NCBI RefSeq assembly: GCF_003309065.1
Contig: NZ_POAF01000004.1
Coordinates: 1 to 64,000 of the forward strand
Direction: 5' to 3'
DNA from: Glutamicibacter soli
GTDB lineage: Bacteria > Actinomycetota > Actinomycetes > Actinomycetales > Micrococcaceae
Length of the DNA stretch: 64,000 bases
Shown: positions 51,454-61,824 of the stretch, one piece after another
Numbering within the stretch: the first letter of the stretch is position 1
Layout: every line of letters starts with the position of its first letter
The notes under the pieces: model-generated
What the model was told of the DNA's origin: nothing
The model's database searches: none
What the model saw: only the letters and a program-made list of their open reading frames with translations
Position numbers and translations under genes: made by a program

Positions 51454-51454
<1 letters not shown>
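49637..51454 (+). CDS. pknA: Ser/Thr protein kinase with two PASTA repeats (pknA position)
   Basis: Membrane kinase that senses muropeptides or lipid II and phosphorylates division and wall proteins. The kinase domain (~8-270) has [14 protein letters not shown] (P-loop), the catalytic Lys in [18 protein letters not shown] and DFGIARLAD, all intact. A membrane helix lies at ~372-392 ([20 protein letters not shown]). Outside are a Thr/Glu-rich stretch (~395-435) and two PASTA repeats (~437-575), then a Pro/Thr tail. Mycobacterial PknA lacks PASTA repeats, so this copy differs. The GTG start overlaps pbpA. Confidence 0.93.
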
Positions 51455-53388
<1,934 letters not shown>

Positions 53389-55920: not shown

Positions 55921-56805
55921 TCAGGTTAGCAAATCCAGGCCGCTCTCGCTGGCCACCTGAAGCAGTGTGGATTCCAAGCGTCCGAGAATCTCCGAATCCA
56001 CGGACCAGCGCTGAAAATACAACGGGACGTCGATGAACCACCGATCATCGAGCTCTTCGAGCCCGTGAACTTGAGCGAGTTGTTGTTCGGGGACCATCCC
56101 CCATCCCATGCCCGCCTGGATCGCGCGCAAGAACTGCCATGAATCCGGAACCATGTGCACTGCCCCGTGCCGCTGGCCCGGATCCAGCCCCAGCTGCTCC
56201 AGCAAATGGTGCTGCAACCGATCTTCGCGGTCGAAAATCATCATGGGGGCGGTTAGGAATCCATCGGAGGATCCACGGGCGAAGTGCTCCCGGGCCATCC
56301 CGGGGGTGCACGCTGCTCGATAGCGCAACGCGCCGAGCTTGCGGACAGTGCATCCTTGGGCGGCAACCGAGCTATTGGTGACCACCGCGCTGACCCGCCC
56401 GCTGCGCAAGGTGTCGAGGGATCGACTCTCATCCATGCGCAGGATCTCGACCGAAACATCGGTCCAGCGGGCCAGCTCGTCGAAAACCGGCGTAAACCAG
56501 GTCGATAGCGAGTCGGCATTCACTCCCACGGCGATCTGCTGGTGGCCTGTCAGGGAGATCTCGTAGGAGAATTCTGCGCTCAACGCCGCAATTTGCCGCG
56601 CATACCGCAACACCTTGATTCCCTGCTCCGTCGGAACCACAGGACGGCTGCGCACGACCAGCACGGCCCCCAGCCTGTTCTCCAGTGCCTTAATCCGCTG
56701 ACTCACGGCAGAGGCAGTAATCCCCAGATCAATGGATGCATCATCGAAGCTTCCAGCATCCACGACGGCCAACAGCGTCTGCAGGTGTTCCACATCGAAT
56801 TTCAC
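55921..56805 (-). CDS. lysG: LysR-family regulator, ArgP/LysG type
   Basis: Activates the divergent basic amino acid exporter when lysine or arginine is in excess. The 294-residue protein has an N-terminal HTH (HLQTLLAVVDAGSFDDASIDLGITASAVSQRIKALE, ~7-42, read in part) with the ArgP-type AVSQRIKALENRLG. An effector domain follows, with IAVGVNADSLSTWFTPVF (~91-108). The 71-bp intergenic region with lysE is AT-rich. Pairing with LysE and the ADSLSTWF signature support the ArgP/LysG assignment over other LysR types. Confidence 0.9.
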   Translation of the reverse strand: MKFDVEHLQTLLAVVDAGSFDDASIDLGITASAVSQRIKALENRLGAVLVVRSRPVVPTEQGIKVLRYARQIAALSAEFSYEISLTGHQQIAVGVNADSLSTWFTPVFDELARWTDVSVEILRMDESRSLDTLRSGRVSAVVTNSSVAAQGCTVRKLGALRYRAACTPGMAREHFARGSSDGFLTAPMMIFDREDRLQHHLLEQLGLDPGQRHGAVHMVPDSWQFLRAIQAGMGWGMVPEQQLAQVHGLEELDDRWFIDVPLYFQRWSVDSEILGRLESTLLQVASESGLDLLT

Positions 56806-56876
56806 ATTAGATACCCTAATGCAGAATCAGAAACTTAAGTTCGACATCATCTTGTTGATTTTCGTACTGTCATTCC

Positions 56877-57494
56877 ATGATCAACGCTTCCCTCCTTCTC
56901 GGACTCTCGACGGGACTATCGCTCATTGTTGCCATCGGAGCGCAGAACGCGTTTGTCCTGCGACAGGGAATTCGCCGCGAACACATCCTGCTGACGGTGG
57001 TGCTTTGCGCACTGTCCGACGTAGTACTCATTTTCGCGGGCATAACCGGCGTGGGCATGGTTGTGGAGCGAGCTCCATGGATCCTGACGATTGCCCGCAT
57101 CGGCGGAGCAATCTTCCTGATTTGCTATGCTTTTTTTGCACTGCGACGCGCCATCGCTCCATCGGGCATGGATTCGTCGAGCACCTCAGCACCAACCACT
57201 GCATGGTCGGTTGCCGCGACGGCGCTGATGCTGACATGGCTCAACCCCCATGTCTACATCGACACGGTGCTCCTGCTCGGCTCCATCGGCGCATCCCAGG
57301 GCGAAGCGTCTGGCGCCTTCGCGGTGGGAGCGATGCTGGCAAGCGTGCTTTGGTTTACCGCGCTGGGGTATGCAGCGCGCTTCCTGTCCAGATTCTTCGC
57401 CAAGCCCACCGCCTGGCGGGTTCTGGATGGCCTCATCTGCATCTTCATGTCGTCATTCGCCATCATGCTCTTGGCACCACTTTTCACCAGTTAA
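56877..57494 (+). CDS. lysE: LysE/ArgO-type amino acid exporter
   Basis: Exports lysine, arginine or similar amino acids. The 205-residue protein has six hydrophobic segments. The family start GLSLIVAIGAQNAFVLRQGI (~13-32) is diagnostic, followed by ALSDVVLIFAGITGVG and, in the later half, MLTWLNPHVYIDTVLLLGSI (~118-137) with the conserved Asn-Pro. Divergent from its LysR regulator. The DnaA-box-rich region begins eight bases after its stop codon. Confidence 0.93.
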   Translation: MINASLLLGLSTGLSLIVAIGAQNAFVLRQGIRREHILLTVVLCALSDVVLIFAGITGVGMVVERAPWILTIARIGGAIFLICYAFFALRRAIAPSGMDSSSTSAPTTAWSVAATALMLTWLNPHVYIDTVLLLGSIGASQGEASGAFAVGAMLASVLWFTALGYAARFLSRFFAKPTAWRVLDGLICIFMSSFAIMLLAPLFTS

Positions 57495-57501
57495 CCAACA
57501 A

Positions 57502-57954
57502 CTATCCACACCTATCCACAGGCGTTGTGGATAGCCCGTAGTCACAACTTGTTCACAACGTTATCCACAGATGGGGACAACATGGGCATTTGTGTTTAAT
57601 TTAGAGCAAAGCTCCATGTCAGAGGGTTTTTATGCAACAAATTAGTTGTGTACAAAAGTTATTAACACTGTGGATCCCTCTTGTGGAAATGCCCATTTTA
57701 CCGAGCAAGCGGTAGCACTCACCTGTTTCGTTTAAAGATTCGAACCGCAGGTTATTAACAGGTTTCCCGTTCGTAGACGCGATATCTACAGCCGTGTTTA
57801 AAAGTTATCCACAGCTGGGGAGAAAGGTGTGAGTATCTACGATTCGGGAGGCTTATTCCCTGGGATTGCAGTCAATCCGGGCTGTTAATAACTTCGCCGA
57901 CGCAGAGTTACACGGGTGTAAGTTATTAACAGTGTGGATAAGCGGTGTGGATAT
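57502..57954. other. Dense DnaA-box cluster
   Basis: Fourteen DnaA-box-like 9-mers lie in 453 bp of non-coding, AT-rich DNA. Perfect TTATCCACA: 57561-57569, 57805-57813 and 57933-57941 (minus). One mismatch: CTATCCACA at 57502-57510, 57512-57520 and 57526-57534 (minus), and ATATCCACA at 57946-57954 (minus). Further relatives: TTGTTCACA (57549), TTGTCCCCA (57572-57580, minus), GGATCCACA (57669-57677, minus). A second class, TTATTAACA, occurs at 57659, 57752, 57883 (minus) and 57923. A 20-bp compound unit starting AAGTTATTAACA recurs at 57656-57675 and 57920-57939 with one difference. It looks like a replication-initiator binding array. Confidence 0.8.
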
Positions 57955-57975
57955 CTTTGCTGGCGTGTTTTCGAA

Positions 57976-58833
57976 TCAGGCCAGAGGCCACTTAGCCGAT
58001 TCGACGGCGAGATAGGTTGAAACAATCATGACCACGCTCAATGCACCCAAGAGCGAAAGCTGAATCTTCGAACGCTGTGGATTACTCCTAGGAATCAACA
58101 TGATGCAAGAAGCGGCGACAATGCCGGCCACCGCGCCGCCGAGGTGGGCCTGCCATGAGATTCCCGAAACAACGAAGCCGAGGACGACGTTAAGCGCCAG
58201 AATAATCGCCATTTGGCGCAGCGCCTGCTTGTTGCCTCGCAGAACTACGAACGTAGCCAGGAAGAGGCCCGCCAAGGCGCCGGAAGCGCCCAGTGTTGCC
58301 GTCGTGGCCGGGCTCAGAAGCATGACTCCCAACGAACCGCCCAATGCGCTGAGAAGGTACAGCCATGTGAATCGAAGCCTGCCAAGCCGAGGTTCGAGAA
58401 GCATGCCGAAAATGTAGACGCCGTACATGTTCATGAGAATGTGGAGGAACGATCCTGTGGAGTGCGCGAAGGCACTGGTGAGCAGGCGCCATGGTTCGTA
58501 GGCCGCGATGGCCGGGATCAGCACCAGATCCTTGGTAAAGCCGGGAATAATCCACTGCAGCAGGTAGACGAACACATTCAGCCCGATGAAAATCATCGTG
58601 ACCAGGGGTGCGCCGGTGCGCAGACGGCCGCCGAATTGCGTCTTCTGCGTCGGAATATTCTGATTCGCCTGCCTCACGCATTCAACGCACTGAACACCGA
58701 CGGGTGCAGGGACTTGGCACTGCGGGCAAACTGGACGCCCGCAGCGGTTGCATGAGACATACGAGACCGTCTCTGGATGCCGAAAGCAGGTTGGCTGGGA
58801 GTGGCCTTGAGGATTCACTTGCCCGTAAGACAT
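57976..58833 (-). CDS. Rhomboid-family intramembrane serine protease with zinc-ribbon N-terminus
   Basis: A 285-residue membrane protease. Residues ~15-60 contain four paired cysteines (CFRHPETVSYVSCNRCGRPV, then CPQCQVPAPVGVQC and CVECV), a B-box-like zinc-binding domain common in actinobacterial rhomboids. The membrane part has about six helices. The catalytic Ser is in LGASGALAGLFLATF (~181-195), the His in SWQAHLGGAVAGIVAA (~229-244), and the HILMNMYGVYIFG loop (~131-143) is conserved. Substrates unknown. It sits next to ppiA, as in other actinobacteria. Confidence 0.93.
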   Translation of the reverse strand: MSYGQVNPQGHSQPTCFRHPETVSYVSCNRCGRPVCPQCQVPAPVGVQCVECVRQANQNIPTQKTQFGGRLRTGAPLVTMIFIGLNVFVYLLQWIIPGFTKDLVLIPAIAAYEPWRLLTSAFAHSTGSFLHILMNMYGVYIFGMLLEPRLGRLRFTWLYLLSALGGSLGVMLLSPATTATLGASGALAGLFLATFVVLRGNKQALRQMAIILALNVVLGFVVSGISWQAHLGGAVAGIVAASCIMLIPRSNPQRSKIQLSLLGALSVVMIVSTYLAVESAKWPLA

Positions 58834-58877
58834 TTGGTTTTCTACCTAGCGTTGGGTTGAACAGTCGTGGTTAAGCA

Positions 58878-58923
58878 TCGAAGGCCCCGTCGACTCCACT
58901 AAGGGAATCGCCGGAGCCTTCGA
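58878..58923 (-). terminator. Terminator downstream of ppiA
   Basis: Interrupted stem TCGAAGGC-c-CCG-t-CGA / TCG-c-CGG-a-GCCTTCGA (two mismatches) with a loop of about 14 nt, just past the ppiA stop on the minus strand. Confidence 0.6.
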
Positions 58924-58940
58924 ATCGCGGGACGAAGAAG

Positions 58941-59486
58941 TTACAGGGTCTCGATGTCGATCGAGTTGATAACTACGTCTTCCAGTGGCTTGTCGCGGCC
59001 ATCGGTGGCAACAGCATTCAGAGCGTCGACAACCTTGCGGGACTCGGCTTCGGTGACTTCACCGAAGATGGTGTGCTTGCCCTGCAGCCAGGTGGTTGGA
59101 ACGGTGGTGATGAAGAACTGCGAACCGTTGGTGCCGCGGCCCATGCGGATGCCTGCGTTGGCCATGGCCAGCTTGTAAGGCTCGTTGAAGTTCAGTTCCG
59201 GGTGGATCTCATCATCGAACTGGTAGCCTGGGCCACCGAAGCCCTGGCCCAGTGGGTCGCCGCCCTGAATCATGAAGTCTGCAATGATGCGGTGGAAAAT
59301 GGTTCCGCTGTACAGCGGGGTGTTGGTCTTCTTGTCACCGGATTCCGGGTGAACCCACTCCTGCTCACCGGTGGAAAGGCCGACGAAGTTGCTGACAGTC
59401 TTTGGAGCGTGGTTGCCGAAAAGATCGACAACGATGTCGCCCAAAGAGGTGTGAATCGTGGCTTTGTGCGTTGCGTTTGCGGTCAT
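58941..59486 (-). CDS. ppiA: Cyclophilin-type peptidyl-prolyl cis-trans isomerase
   Basis: Catalyses proline isomerisation during protein folding; cytosolic, 181 residues. Cyclophilin motifs are HTSLGDIVVDLFGNHAPKTV (~12-31), YSGTIFHRIIADFMIQGGDP (~65-84, with the catalytic Arg), TNGSQFFITTVPTTWLQGKH (~122-141) and a final FGEVTEAESRKVVDAL. ATG 59486 is chosen because the family begins MTANATHKATIHTSLG; the longer in-frame extension to 59765 is Ser/Cys/Arg-rich and non-conserved. Confidence 0.95.
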   Translation of the reverse strand: MTANATHKATIHTSLGDIVVDLFGNHAPKTVSNFVGLSTGEQEWVHPESGDKKTNTPLYSGTIFHRIIADFMIQGGDPLGQGFGGPGYQFDDEIHPELNFNEPYKLAMANAGIRMGRGTNGSQFFITTVPTTWLQGKHTIFGEVTEAESRKVVDALNAVATDGRDKPLEDVVINSIDIETL

Positions 59487-59656
59487 GCTCTTATTCTTCC
59501 ATGAGCACGGCCCGAGCCGCGAAAAGCGGCCTACGCGGTCAGTGAAAATTTCGGGCAATTTTCGATGCACGGCGGCCAAACGCTGGCTCCGGCAGTGGCA
59601 TGTGCCTAGGCTGGAGGTGTCTGTTCGACAACAGCTTGAATCAAGAGGGAGCAAAC

Positions 59657-59863
59657 ATGAGCAAGAAGAGCAATGCTGGAAAGCTACTAGCCGTAGGCCT
59701 AATTGCCGGACTCGTCGCATTGCTGGTGGCCGCTTGGAAAGCGTCCAAGCCGGTTGAGGACCCATGGGAAAACGAGCCTGCCAGCGCCGAGCCGCAGCAG
59801 CCGGTCGCGTCGCGCGAAGCGACTGTCGACGAAGTACGCGAAATTCTGAGCGAAGACCAGTAA
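59657..59863 (+). CDS. Small anchored acidic protein
   Basis: A 68-residue protein: short basic start MSKKSNAGK, one hydrophobic helix (LLAVGLIAGLVALLVAAWKA, ~10-29) and an acidic, Pro/Glu-rich tail (WENEPASAEPQQP) ending VDEVREILSEDQ. AGAGGGAG before the ATG at 59657 is a strong ribosome-binding site. Divergent from ppiA. The layout resembles short conserved proteins found beside ppiA in related genera. Function unknown. Confidence 0.75.
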   Translation: MSKKSNAGKLLAVGLIAGLVALLVAAWKASKPVEDPWENEPASAEPQQPVASREATVDEVREILSEDQ

Positions 59864-59868
59864 CTGGG

Positions 59869-60738
59869 TCACGCCGCGGTTTTAGGCGGTACTTGGCCTC
59901 TGACCACGAGAACCAGCCCCAACAGGATCACTGCAAGTCCCAGATAGGTCGCTGTCGGCACGACTTGCCCTAGTACCAGCGCCGCAAGCAGAGCGGCGCC
60001 TGGAATCTCGAGCAGGATCAGCGTGGAAACTGTCAGCGGGCCCAGCACATTGAGCAGGTGGTTCATGGCCGTGTGCCCGAGCAGCTGGGCGCAGACGGTA
60101 AGCAGGATGATTCCAAGCCATCCGGTGGCGTTGAATCCCCAGACCGGCTGGCCGGCCACCAGACAAAGCACCAGCAGAATCACCGCGGTGATGCCGTAGC
60201 AGCTGGAGGAGTACGTTGCCGTGCCCATGGTCTTGCGTGCCGTGGCACCCGCCAGTGTGTAAATGGCGGCAAGCACACCGCCAGCAAGGGCGAGCAGGTC
60301 TCCGATAATTGCATCGCAGCCCTGTCCCAGATCGAAACCGGTAATCAGCACGACTCCCAAGATCGCAATGCCCATCCCGAAGAAAACCGGCTTGCGGTAC
60401 CGGACCCCGCGCGATGCCTGGAAGAGCGCGATCCATACACCTTGGATGCACACTAGGGCGGTGCCGGCGGCGACGCTGGTCAGGCGCATCGAGTACATGA
60501 AGCACACGAAATGCAGTGCCAAGGCGACACCGGCGACGCTGGTGAAGAACCATTCACGGCTCGTGATCTGCCGATAGGACTGCCGGTTCCTCTTGAGCAC
60601 GGGAACTGACAGAACGGCGGCAGCTGCGCCATTGCGCCACAAAGCCATGGACAGCACGGGAACCTGGGGAAATGCAGCGATGATCGGGCCGGAGGCCGAA
60701 ATCCCCAGGATTCCCAGTGCAGCAAGCAAAAATGTCAC
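59869..60738 (-). CDS. EamA/DMT-family transporter
   Basis: A 289-residue drug/metabolite transporter family membrane protein with ten predicted helices in two EamA repeats (~1-135 and ~145-280). Repeat two contains DLLALAGGVLAAIYTLAGAT and TLILLEIPGAALLAALVLGQ, followed by GLAVILLGLVLVVRGQ, matching the EamA C-terminal pattern. Export of an amino acid or metabolite is typical but unproven. Its upstream region includes an unusual AT-rich palindrome (60831-60853). Confidence 0.88.
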   Translation of the reverse strand: MTFLLAALGILGISASGPIIAAFPQVPVLSMALWRNGAAAAVLSVPVLKRNRQSYRQITSREWFFTSVAGVALALHFVCFMYSMRLTSVAAGTALVCIQGVWIALFQASRGVRYRKPVFFGMGIAILGVVLITGFDLGQGCDAIIGDLLALAGGVLAAIYTLAGATARKTMGTATYSSSCYGITAVILLVLCLVAGQPVWGFNATGWLGIILLTVCAQLLGHTAMNHLLNVLGPLTVSTLILLEIPGAALLAALVLGQVVPTATYLGLAVILLGLVLVVRGQVPPKTAA

Positions 60739-60830
60739 AGGCTAAGATTACCCGTTGTTGATACCGCTCTTAAATCGTTTGCCGCAATCCCGATGTAGCC
60801 TGCGAACCGGGTCCAGAAAATACATTCTTT

Positions 60831-60853
60831 TATATGCATATATATATGTCATA
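60831..60853. other. AT-rich palindrome upstream of the EamA gene
   Basis: A stretch of alternating AT with the perfect 12-bp palindrome CATATATATATG (60837-60848), striking in this GC-rich DNA. It lies in the 117-bp gap between the symporter stop and the EamA start, so it may be part of the EamA promoter/operator. Confidence 0.4.
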
Positions 60854-60855
60854 AG

Positions 60856-61824
60856 CTATTTTAGGCTATATTGCGCGCGTCGCTTCCTTCGCCAGAAGGC
60901 TGCGATTATGGCTCCTGACAAGTTATGCCACACGGAGAATACTGCAGCGGGAAGAGCTGCTTCGGGCGTGAAATACTGCTTCGCCAGCCCGCCGGCAAGA
61001 CCGGAATTCTGCATCCCGACTTCGATGGCGATCGTCCGCCGGGAAGCCTCAGGTACCCGTAGCAATTTTCCGATGCCGTAGCCGAGCAGCAGTCCGAGAC
61101 CGTTGTGCAGGACAACTGCCACGAAGATCAGCAGCCCTGCGGACAGGATCGCCTCGGAGCTGCCAGCCACGATGATGGTCACCACGATGGTGATGGCCGT
61201 GACCGAGAGCCAGGGCAGGGCCGCCAAGATCCTGAGCACTGCTTTGTTGAGAAGCATCCGAAGCACGATGCCAAGTACCACTGGAATCAAGACGACCTGG
61301 AGGACCGTTCCTGCCATGGACCGGGCGTCCACCGGCAGATACTGGCCGGCAAGCCAGAACGCGAGCAACGGAGTGAGAACGGGTGCAGCAAGAGTGGACA
61401 GCGACGTCATCGCCACGGAGAGCGCCACATTCCCCTTTGCCAGGTAGGCGACGACGTTGGAAGCGGTACCGCCTGGTGCGCAGCCAACCAGGATCAGACC
61501 GGCAGCCAGGGCAGGATCCAGGTTCAGCCCCCACGCCACCAGCCAGCCCATCGCCGGCATCACGACAAACTGGGCAGCGACGCCGCCGAGCACCGGAAGC
61601 GGATTCTTTAAAACCAGTCCGAAGTCCGGCAGGGTGAGCGTTAGCCCCATGCAGAACATGATGATCATCAGCAGTGGATTGATCCATGACGACAGCCCGG
61701 AAAAAGCATGGGGGACCAGGACTCCGGCGACGCCGCCGAGCAGGATCAGAGCAGGGAAGAGCAGCACCGCGATTCGCGAATTGCTCTCGGTCTTCGTCTG
61801 GGTCGCGTCGATGTCTCGGCGCAT
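60856..61824 (-). CDS. Bile acid:sodium symporter (BASS) family transporter
   Basis: Na+-coupled transporter of the BASS family, 322 residues from ATG 61824, with about ten membrane helices. Signatures include LLMIIMFCMGLTLTLPDF (~48-65) and LILVGCAPGGTASNVVAYLA (~107-126, the Na+-site region). The second repeat half carries TIAIEVGMQNSGLAGGLAKQYF (~265-286, quoted in part). Bacterial members carry organic anions such as pantoate, keto acids or pyruvate rather than bile acids. A TTG at 61878 would add an 18-residue polar start and cannot be excluded. Confidence 0.88.
   Translation of the reverse strand: MRRDIDATQTKTESNSRIAVLLFPALILLGGVAGVLVPHAFSGLSSWINPLLMIIMFCMGLTLTLPDFGLVLKNPLPVLGGVAAQFVVMPAMGWLVAWGLNLDPALAAGLILVGCAPGGTASNVVAYLAKGNVALSVAMTSLSTLAAPVLTPLLAFWLAGQYLPVDARSMAGTVLQVVLIPVVLGIVLRMLLNKAVLRILAALPWLSVTAITIVVTIIVAGSSEAILSAGLLIFVAVVLHNGLGLLLGYGIGKLLRVPEASRRTIAIEVGMQNSGLAGGLAKQYFTPEAALPAAVFSVWHNLSGAIIAAFWRRKRRAQYSLK

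Follow-up and report, generated by a model that had tools for sequence, protein, structure and literature searches.

The window, as we call the whole stretch of DNA that was analysed, comprises 64,000 bp of Glutamicibacter soli, bases 1–64000 of contig C20 in a 3.84-Mb genome of 25 contigs; Glutamicibacter are soil and cheese bacteria. Within it, the genes for a LysE-type exporter and a rhomboid-family protein converge on a 481-bp spacer with a GC content of 45%, against 65% in the window, and this spacer holds an array of DnaA boxes with the following features:

56877–57494, plus strand: LysE-type exporter gene (Pfam PF01810, E = 1.1e-37), whose end the array adjoins
57495–57975, no strand: DnaA-box array, proposed replication origin, in the spacer on which lysE and the rhomboid gene converge with their 3' ends
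57502–57534, both strands: three one-mismatch boxes CTATCCACA at the lysE end (57502 plus, 57512 plus, 57526 minus)
57557–57580, plus strand: unit A part 1, exact box TTATCCACA (57561–57569) with a GGGGA stretch (repeat family D2)
57656–57690, plus strand: unit A part 2, TTATTAACA (57659–57667), then inverted two-mismatch boxes (repeat family D1)
57752–57760, plus strand: additional copy of TTATTAACA
57801–57824, plus strand: unit B part 1, exact box (57805–57813) with a GGGGA stretch, 244 bp from unit A part 1 (repeat family D2)
57883–57891, minus strand: additional copy of TTATTAACA
57920–57954, plus strand: unit B part 2, TTATTAACA (57923–57931), an inverted exact box (57933–57941) and an inverted one-mismatch box (57946–57954), 264 bp from unit A part 2 (repeat family D1)
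57976–58833, minus strand: rhomboid-family gene (Pfam PF01694, E = 4.9e-30), with DnaA boxes at its 3' end in the relatives examined

A recount of 57495–57975 bears out an earlier note on this DNA, which had listed three perfect boxes, four with one mismatch and four copies of a second 9-mer. Exact boxes start at 57561 (+), 57805 (+) and 57933 (−) and one-mismatch boxes at 57502 (+), 57512 (+), 57526 (−) and 57946 (−), while the second 9-mer, TTATTAACA, starts at 57659 (+), 57752 (+), 57883 (−) and 57923 (+), its four copies being among twelve two-mismatch sites. As expected of an oriC, the cluster is denser than chance: against the seven boxes observed with no more than one mismatch, 1,000 first-order Markov simulations of 481 bp gave at most two, 862 of them giving none, and 1,000 second-order simulations never gave more than three. 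Exact boxes number only 22 in the 3.84-Mb genome, three of them in the array, for which the Poisson probability of three or more in 481 bp is 3.5e-9, uncorrected for scanning. Searches of 57000–58500 returned no Rfam match at the gathering score, and no promoter or terminator patterns were found in 57400–58050. The eight named relatives found with the rhomboid protein comprise five Glutamicibacter and three Arthrobacter sp. records, the closest being from G. protophormiae (94% identity).

The array is built from two spaced copies of one two-part module, in which TTATCCACAG with a GGGGA stretch forms the first part, and AAGTTATTAACA followed by inverted boxes the second. The 20-bp compound unit described in the earlier note, starting with AAGTTATTAACA, is indeed found at 57656 and again, with one difference, 264 bp further on at 57920; a repeat search extends it to 35 bp at 77% identity and adds a second repeat of 24 bp, whose copies at 57557 and 57801 are 244 bp apart. 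Of 18 Glutamicibacter genomes, 17 carry the part-2 core twice and 16 the part-1 core. The two part-2 copies are 264–267 bp apart (16 genomes) and the two part-1 copies 243–246 bp (15 genomes), G003 being the one exception in both cases, with 279 and 258 bp. With 145 of 558 alignment columns invariant and a mean pairwise identity of only 63% across the array, this steady spacing indicates that the register is kept while the intervening DNA diverges. An 18-mer of tandem degenerate boxes near an end of contig C5 (780–797) recurs unchanged 276 bp further on (1056–1073).

We located the remaining replication genes and DnaA-box clusters on contig C20 as follows:

71162–72289, minus strand: dnaN (NCBIfam models)
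72756–74243, minus strand: dnaA (NCBIfam models)
182927–183264, no strand: third DnaA-box cluster, the densest on the contig (one exact box, nine one-mismatch boxes and one TTATTAACA), upstream of dnaB and ~109 kb from dnaA

From dnaN toward the window follow recF, gyrB and gyrA, each above the NCBIfam cut-off in at least one model, so that the order gyrA-gyrB-recF-dnaN-dnaA, guessed in the earlier note, is right, with all five genes on the minus strand (NCBIfam models); its estimate of 13–14 kb to dnaA was likewise close, the measured distance from the array to the near end of dnaA being 14.8 kb, and that to dnaN 13.2 kb. The canonical actinobacterial oriC, as in Mycobacterium and Streptomyces, occupies the dnaA-dnaN spacer, a rule in Actinomycetota from which the placement of the array departs. 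On the far side of dnaA from the array, at 77927–84971, lie seven exact parS-like sites and one with two mismatches.

The second class of sites proposed in the earlier note proved real, and is tied genome-wide to DnaA-box clusters. TTATTAACA occurs six times in the 3.84-Mb genome, four times in the array, once in the dnaA-dnaN spacer (72539) and once at 183220, every copy thus lying in one of three DnaA-box clusters. Because the same word read backward occurs four times genome-wide, a count of six is not high; the confinement is the notable part. Below the third cluster, the first 216 codons of the gene match DnaB models, a partial piece that scores under the full-length cut-offs; the position of this cluster suggests that DnaA controls the helicase gene, or else that the cluster is one more DnaA-binding locus.

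Conservation of position and architecture in relatives, which one would expect of an oriC, is found for the array. Loss of the boxes in syntenic close relatives, which the earlier note had named as evidence against its reading, was looked for: the array is present in all 18 genus genomes searched with its boxes kept, and both it and the dnaA-dnaN spacer retain DnaA boxes together with TTATTAACA in 18 of 18. Overall sequence conservation is higher in the dnaA-dnaN spacer (179 of 622 columns invariant, mean pairwise identity 75%) than in the array. For the family, which held at least 196 genomes drawn in one search, we sampled 33 genomes, one or two per genus, covering 30 of 31 genera (all but g19). 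The stretches of g17, g22 and g14_G030 contained no rhomboid gene, and a rhomboid stretch of g17 was added later. Each of the 30 genomes (28 genera) with the gene in the stretch has 2–10 boxes (0–1 mismatch) within 900 bp past its matched 3' end, and the rhomboid gene of G033, on a different contig from dnaA, has four. Altogether, at least two boxes mark the rhomboid 3' end at 31 of 31 family loci counted, in 29 genera and at varying distances from dnaA, a count that takes in the inverted rhomboid gene of G057 and that of G018, which lies 107 kb from dnaA. Boxes are also present in the dnaA-dnaN spacer of 33 of 33 family genomes, where they number 2–9; comparing the two sites over windows of unequal length, the rhomboid end has more boxes in 23 of 30 genomes, as many in four and fewer in three.

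We then asked where along this region the replication polarity of the strands changes. The hexamer GGGGGA favours the leading strand of C20, G003 and G015 in co-directional genes (119:13, approximately 9:1), in head-on genes (52:19, 3:1) and between genes (40:5, 8:1), and may be a chromosome-orienting (FtsK-type) motif in Glutamicibacter. Sampled at twenty places on the complete G015 chromosome, its majority strand flips only near 0 and at 1.70–1.86 Mb, the sample at 2.04 Mb reading 3:6, and on contig C20 the best change point falls within 56097–61710. Without constraint, the change point of G003 moves to the far edge of the stretch, because the DNA left of dnaA runs the wrong way, and the sites turn between 11849 and 16619 only locally; GC skew there has a local low near 16 kb and its lowest point at −206 kb. 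About 60–200 kb left of dnaA on G003 contig C1, both the polar motif and the cumulative skew are reversed, as if inverted. Set in a dnaA-forward frame, GGGGGA counts over the 18 genus genomes are 0:27 upstream of dnaN, 5:52 between dnaN and the rhomboid gene and 60:14 beyond the rhomboid end, the last region being long in only six of the 18; many sites are common by descent, and distinct positions counted by eye come to about 15 reverse and 5 forward.

To read polarity independently of gene strand, we used 6-mers biased alike in both gene directions, in two sets, one looser than the other. Both sets group the dnaN–rhomboid segment with the dnaA side in all 18 genus genomes (−2.4 to −22.9), as DNA copied from the array toward dnaA. 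In a calibration on 71 partly overlapping windows of the same size, taken from held-out arms of known direction, four scored on the wrong side (three with the looser set), with one or none below −5, and among those with at least 70% co-directional genes the wrong side was scored by 0 of 11 and 1 of 11 for the two sets; some segment scores, such as −2.4 and −3.7 for G015, lie inside this calibration tail, and variant thresholds that leave G015 two words turn it to +2.4, so that 17 of 18 agree. Fitted jointly in the 13 genomes with both flanks, the switch lies 394 bp past the rhomboid end with 10 words (3-nat interval 351–872) and 452 bp past it with 30 (412–490), inside the array; the last few hundred bases of this precision are untrustworthy because conserved TCTCCCCA-like stretches of the array feed the words, and switch points from single genomes scatter from −4.7 to +2.9 kb. 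In the genus, then, the strand-independent words place the replication-polarity switch, the mark expected of an oriC, at the array and not at dnaA-dnaN.

Together, the polarity switch and the conservation favour oriC among the roles that the earlier note had left side by side (titration site, second origin or oriC), although a role shared with the dnaA-dnaN spacer remains among the readings weighed below. We propose, with a probability of about 0.6 and from sequence comparison, that the array serves Glutamicibacter as its main DnaA-dependent oriC, and that the same probably applies to much of the Micrococcaceae. The two spaced module copies would be loaded with DnaA, which would form oligomers on both, low-GC DNA would open at the array, and the helicase would be loaded there before forks depart in both directions. 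The fork toward dnaA would then meet the rhomboid gene, a cyclophilin gene, gyrA, gyrB, recF, dnaN and dnaA head-on, most genes from rhomboid to dnaA being transcribed against it, as would be a PASTA-kinase gene (51454–53388) on the other side. Head-on gyrB-gyrA and dnaN would be unusual, which we count against an origin at the array, as we do the position of the parS-like cluster on the other side of dnaA.

Those two points aside, an origin in the dnaA-dnaN spacer, with the array as an accessory that titrates, reactivates or inactivates DnaA in the manner of datA, DARS or the Bacillus and Streptomyces clusters, has several observations in its favour. Throughout the genus alignment the spacer keeps a near-invariant tandem double box followed by GGGTTATTAACACT, with 3–5 boxes per genome, and the boxes at the rhomboid end accompany that gene even far from dnaA (107 kb in G018). 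An all-6-mer classifier conditioned on gene strand, correct on 35 of 36 held-out windows, gives the dnaN–rhomboid segment the opposite sign in 18 of 18 genomes (+0.9 to +13.2), as an initial uncorrected 14-word model had in 15 of 18. Divided by class over 15 genomes, the classifier score is +107 for forward genes, −2 for reverse genes and −14 for intergenic DNA, and by region +108 from dnaN to gyrA and −17 from gyrA to the rhomboid gene; a likely source of the contrary sign is codon usage in essential genes, a class that elsewhere is mostly co-directional. Signals for unwinding favour neither site clearly. A loose DnaA-trio rule, applied with no null model, finds matches in five of 18 dnaA-dnaN spacers and none of 18 arrays. 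The basal unwinding system is described as DnaA boxes, a spacer and DnaA-trios (PMC8287927); under a rule modelled on that source, also with no null, the best array match, found in 14 of 18 genomes, resembles it in having tandem boxes at a distance of 13 bp, followed by three NTN triplets, and differs in that the triplets are weak matches, while matches in the dnaA-dnaN spacers are inconsistent. The least stable 27-bp windows are alike at the two sites. Outside the genus, the annotation of Kocuria rhizophila puts oriC between dnaA and dnaN (PMC12500396). Since a polarity switch at the array would not be expected from an accessory site, we consider this arrangement unlikely, as we do, with less hesitation, a division of labour in which array and dnaA-dnaN spacer act jointly or by turns, with DnaA recruited at one and the DNA opened at the other. 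Bipartite origins occur in Bacillus and Helicobacter, and such a split origin would be a widely spaced version of them; the boxes and TTATTAACA shared by both sites in all 18 genus genomes, and the third TTATTAACA-bearing cluster upstream of dnaB, agree with it. Frequent firing of both sites, however, should produce a polarity change in mid-segment, whereas the overall trend of the joint profile is downward on the way from dnaN to the array, interrupted by local rises of up to ~8 nats and nearly level from −11 to −8 kb.

Gene direction might also have produced a switch at the array with no link to replication, as genes on both sides converge on it, and gene direction does dominate plain GC skew. 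GC skew on C20 reaches its minimum at 57567, but as the skew follows gene direction it carries little weight, and plain skew was set aside as an origin marker, the coding-strand GC3 skew being negative for both gene directions. We regard this explanation as highly improbable: the polarity words are biased alike in both gene directions, the reverse genes and intergenic DNA of the segment agree with the polarity in most genus genomes, and in other genera the same segment shows no GGGGGA bias (55:57 when pooled over stretches in which dnaN and the rhomboid gene are no more than 16 kb apart), so the bias is not dictated by the genes as such.

Polarity words were applied to 26 stretches from other genera, with g2, whose rhomboid gene is on another stretch, and g13, where it is inverted, left out as well. 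For the segment, 19 of the 26 agree in sign with the genus and seven are opposite (g5, g6, g12, g25, g26, g27 and g28). Where both outer flanks have the expected sign, at thresholds of our own choosing (below −3 and above +3), the segment agrees in seven of seven, weakly in g23 and g31 (−1.0 and −1.5). Given the opposite polarity in g12 (G028) and g25–g28, the active origin may differ between genera. G018, with its rhomboid gene 107 kb from dnaA, was tried as a natural experiment and rejected, as 0–113 kb holds only three GGGGGAG sites, both strands counted together. An interval at ~10.9–99 kb of its contig C1, nearly devoid of GGGGGAG, splits gyrA from the rhomboid gene and adjoins tRNA-Ile and tRNA-Ala genes; it is probably mostly a mobile element, with serine recombinase and conjugation open reading frames read by eye, and as such uninformative for polarity. 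GGGGGA sites outside this putative element point in both directions, leaving the polarity of G018 ambiguous.

Compared with known systems, the array resembles the canonical actinobacterial oriC in being intergenic, low in GC and furnished with DnaA boxes on both strands, and differs from it in its distance from dnaN (13.2 kb) and from dnaA (14.8 kb), in its place between the ends of converging genes and in its two spaced module copies; the Glutamicibacter dnaA-dnaN spacer itself holds fewer boxes than the array. The oriC of Escherichia coli likewise sits apart from dnaA, between mnmG/gidA and mioC, in a different gene neighbourhood and phylum. With datA and DARS of E. coli and the Bacillus subtilis and Streptomyces clusters the array shares intergenic DnaA boxes away from dnaA; to our knowledge none of these marks a switch in strand polarity, unlike the array. 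What is new here is thus most likely an origin apart from dnaA, as in E. coli, within a phylum where the dnaA-dnaN spacer is the rule. If so, Actinomycetota would include a case in which origin and dnaA are apart, the two modules at their fixed spacing would offer a compact origin to study, and the gyrase and sliding-clamp genes would lie head-on to the first fork. In the open-access literature we found no paper joining DnaA boxes, rhomboid and an origin of replication. The available text of the genome paper on Arthrobacter arilaitensis Re117 (chromosome 3,859,257 bp) mentions a replication origin and does not give its position. In Ori-Finder 2022 the principal indicator gene is by default dnaA, used along with GC disparity and DnaA boxes (PMC10225481), and an origin ~14 kb away could therefore be missed across the family.

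A wider reading, which we hold to be doubtful, is that the rhomboid 3' end carries an ancestral or alternative origin of the whole actinobacterial order, so that many assumed dnaA-dnaN origins would be misplaced, and that TTATTAACA is a second initiator element marking the array, dnaA-dnaN and dnaB clusters, through which DnaA might link initiation with the expression of the replicative helicase and of the dnaA gene region. Bifidobacterium dentium speaks against a rhomboid origin across the order, as its presumed oriC, assigned by sequence features, lies near dnaA (PMC2788695). Beyond the family, we examined 19 of 53 genomes with a rhomboid match, one to three for each of 16 families of the order: at least one box lies in the 1,100 bp at 19 of 19 loci, where shuffle means are 0.00–0.20, and at least two at 12 of 19. 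We claim no origin for these spacers, because most hold few boxes. The most among the 19 is in G217, from another family of the order, with 14 boxes, four of them exact, within 1,100 bp past the rhomboid match.
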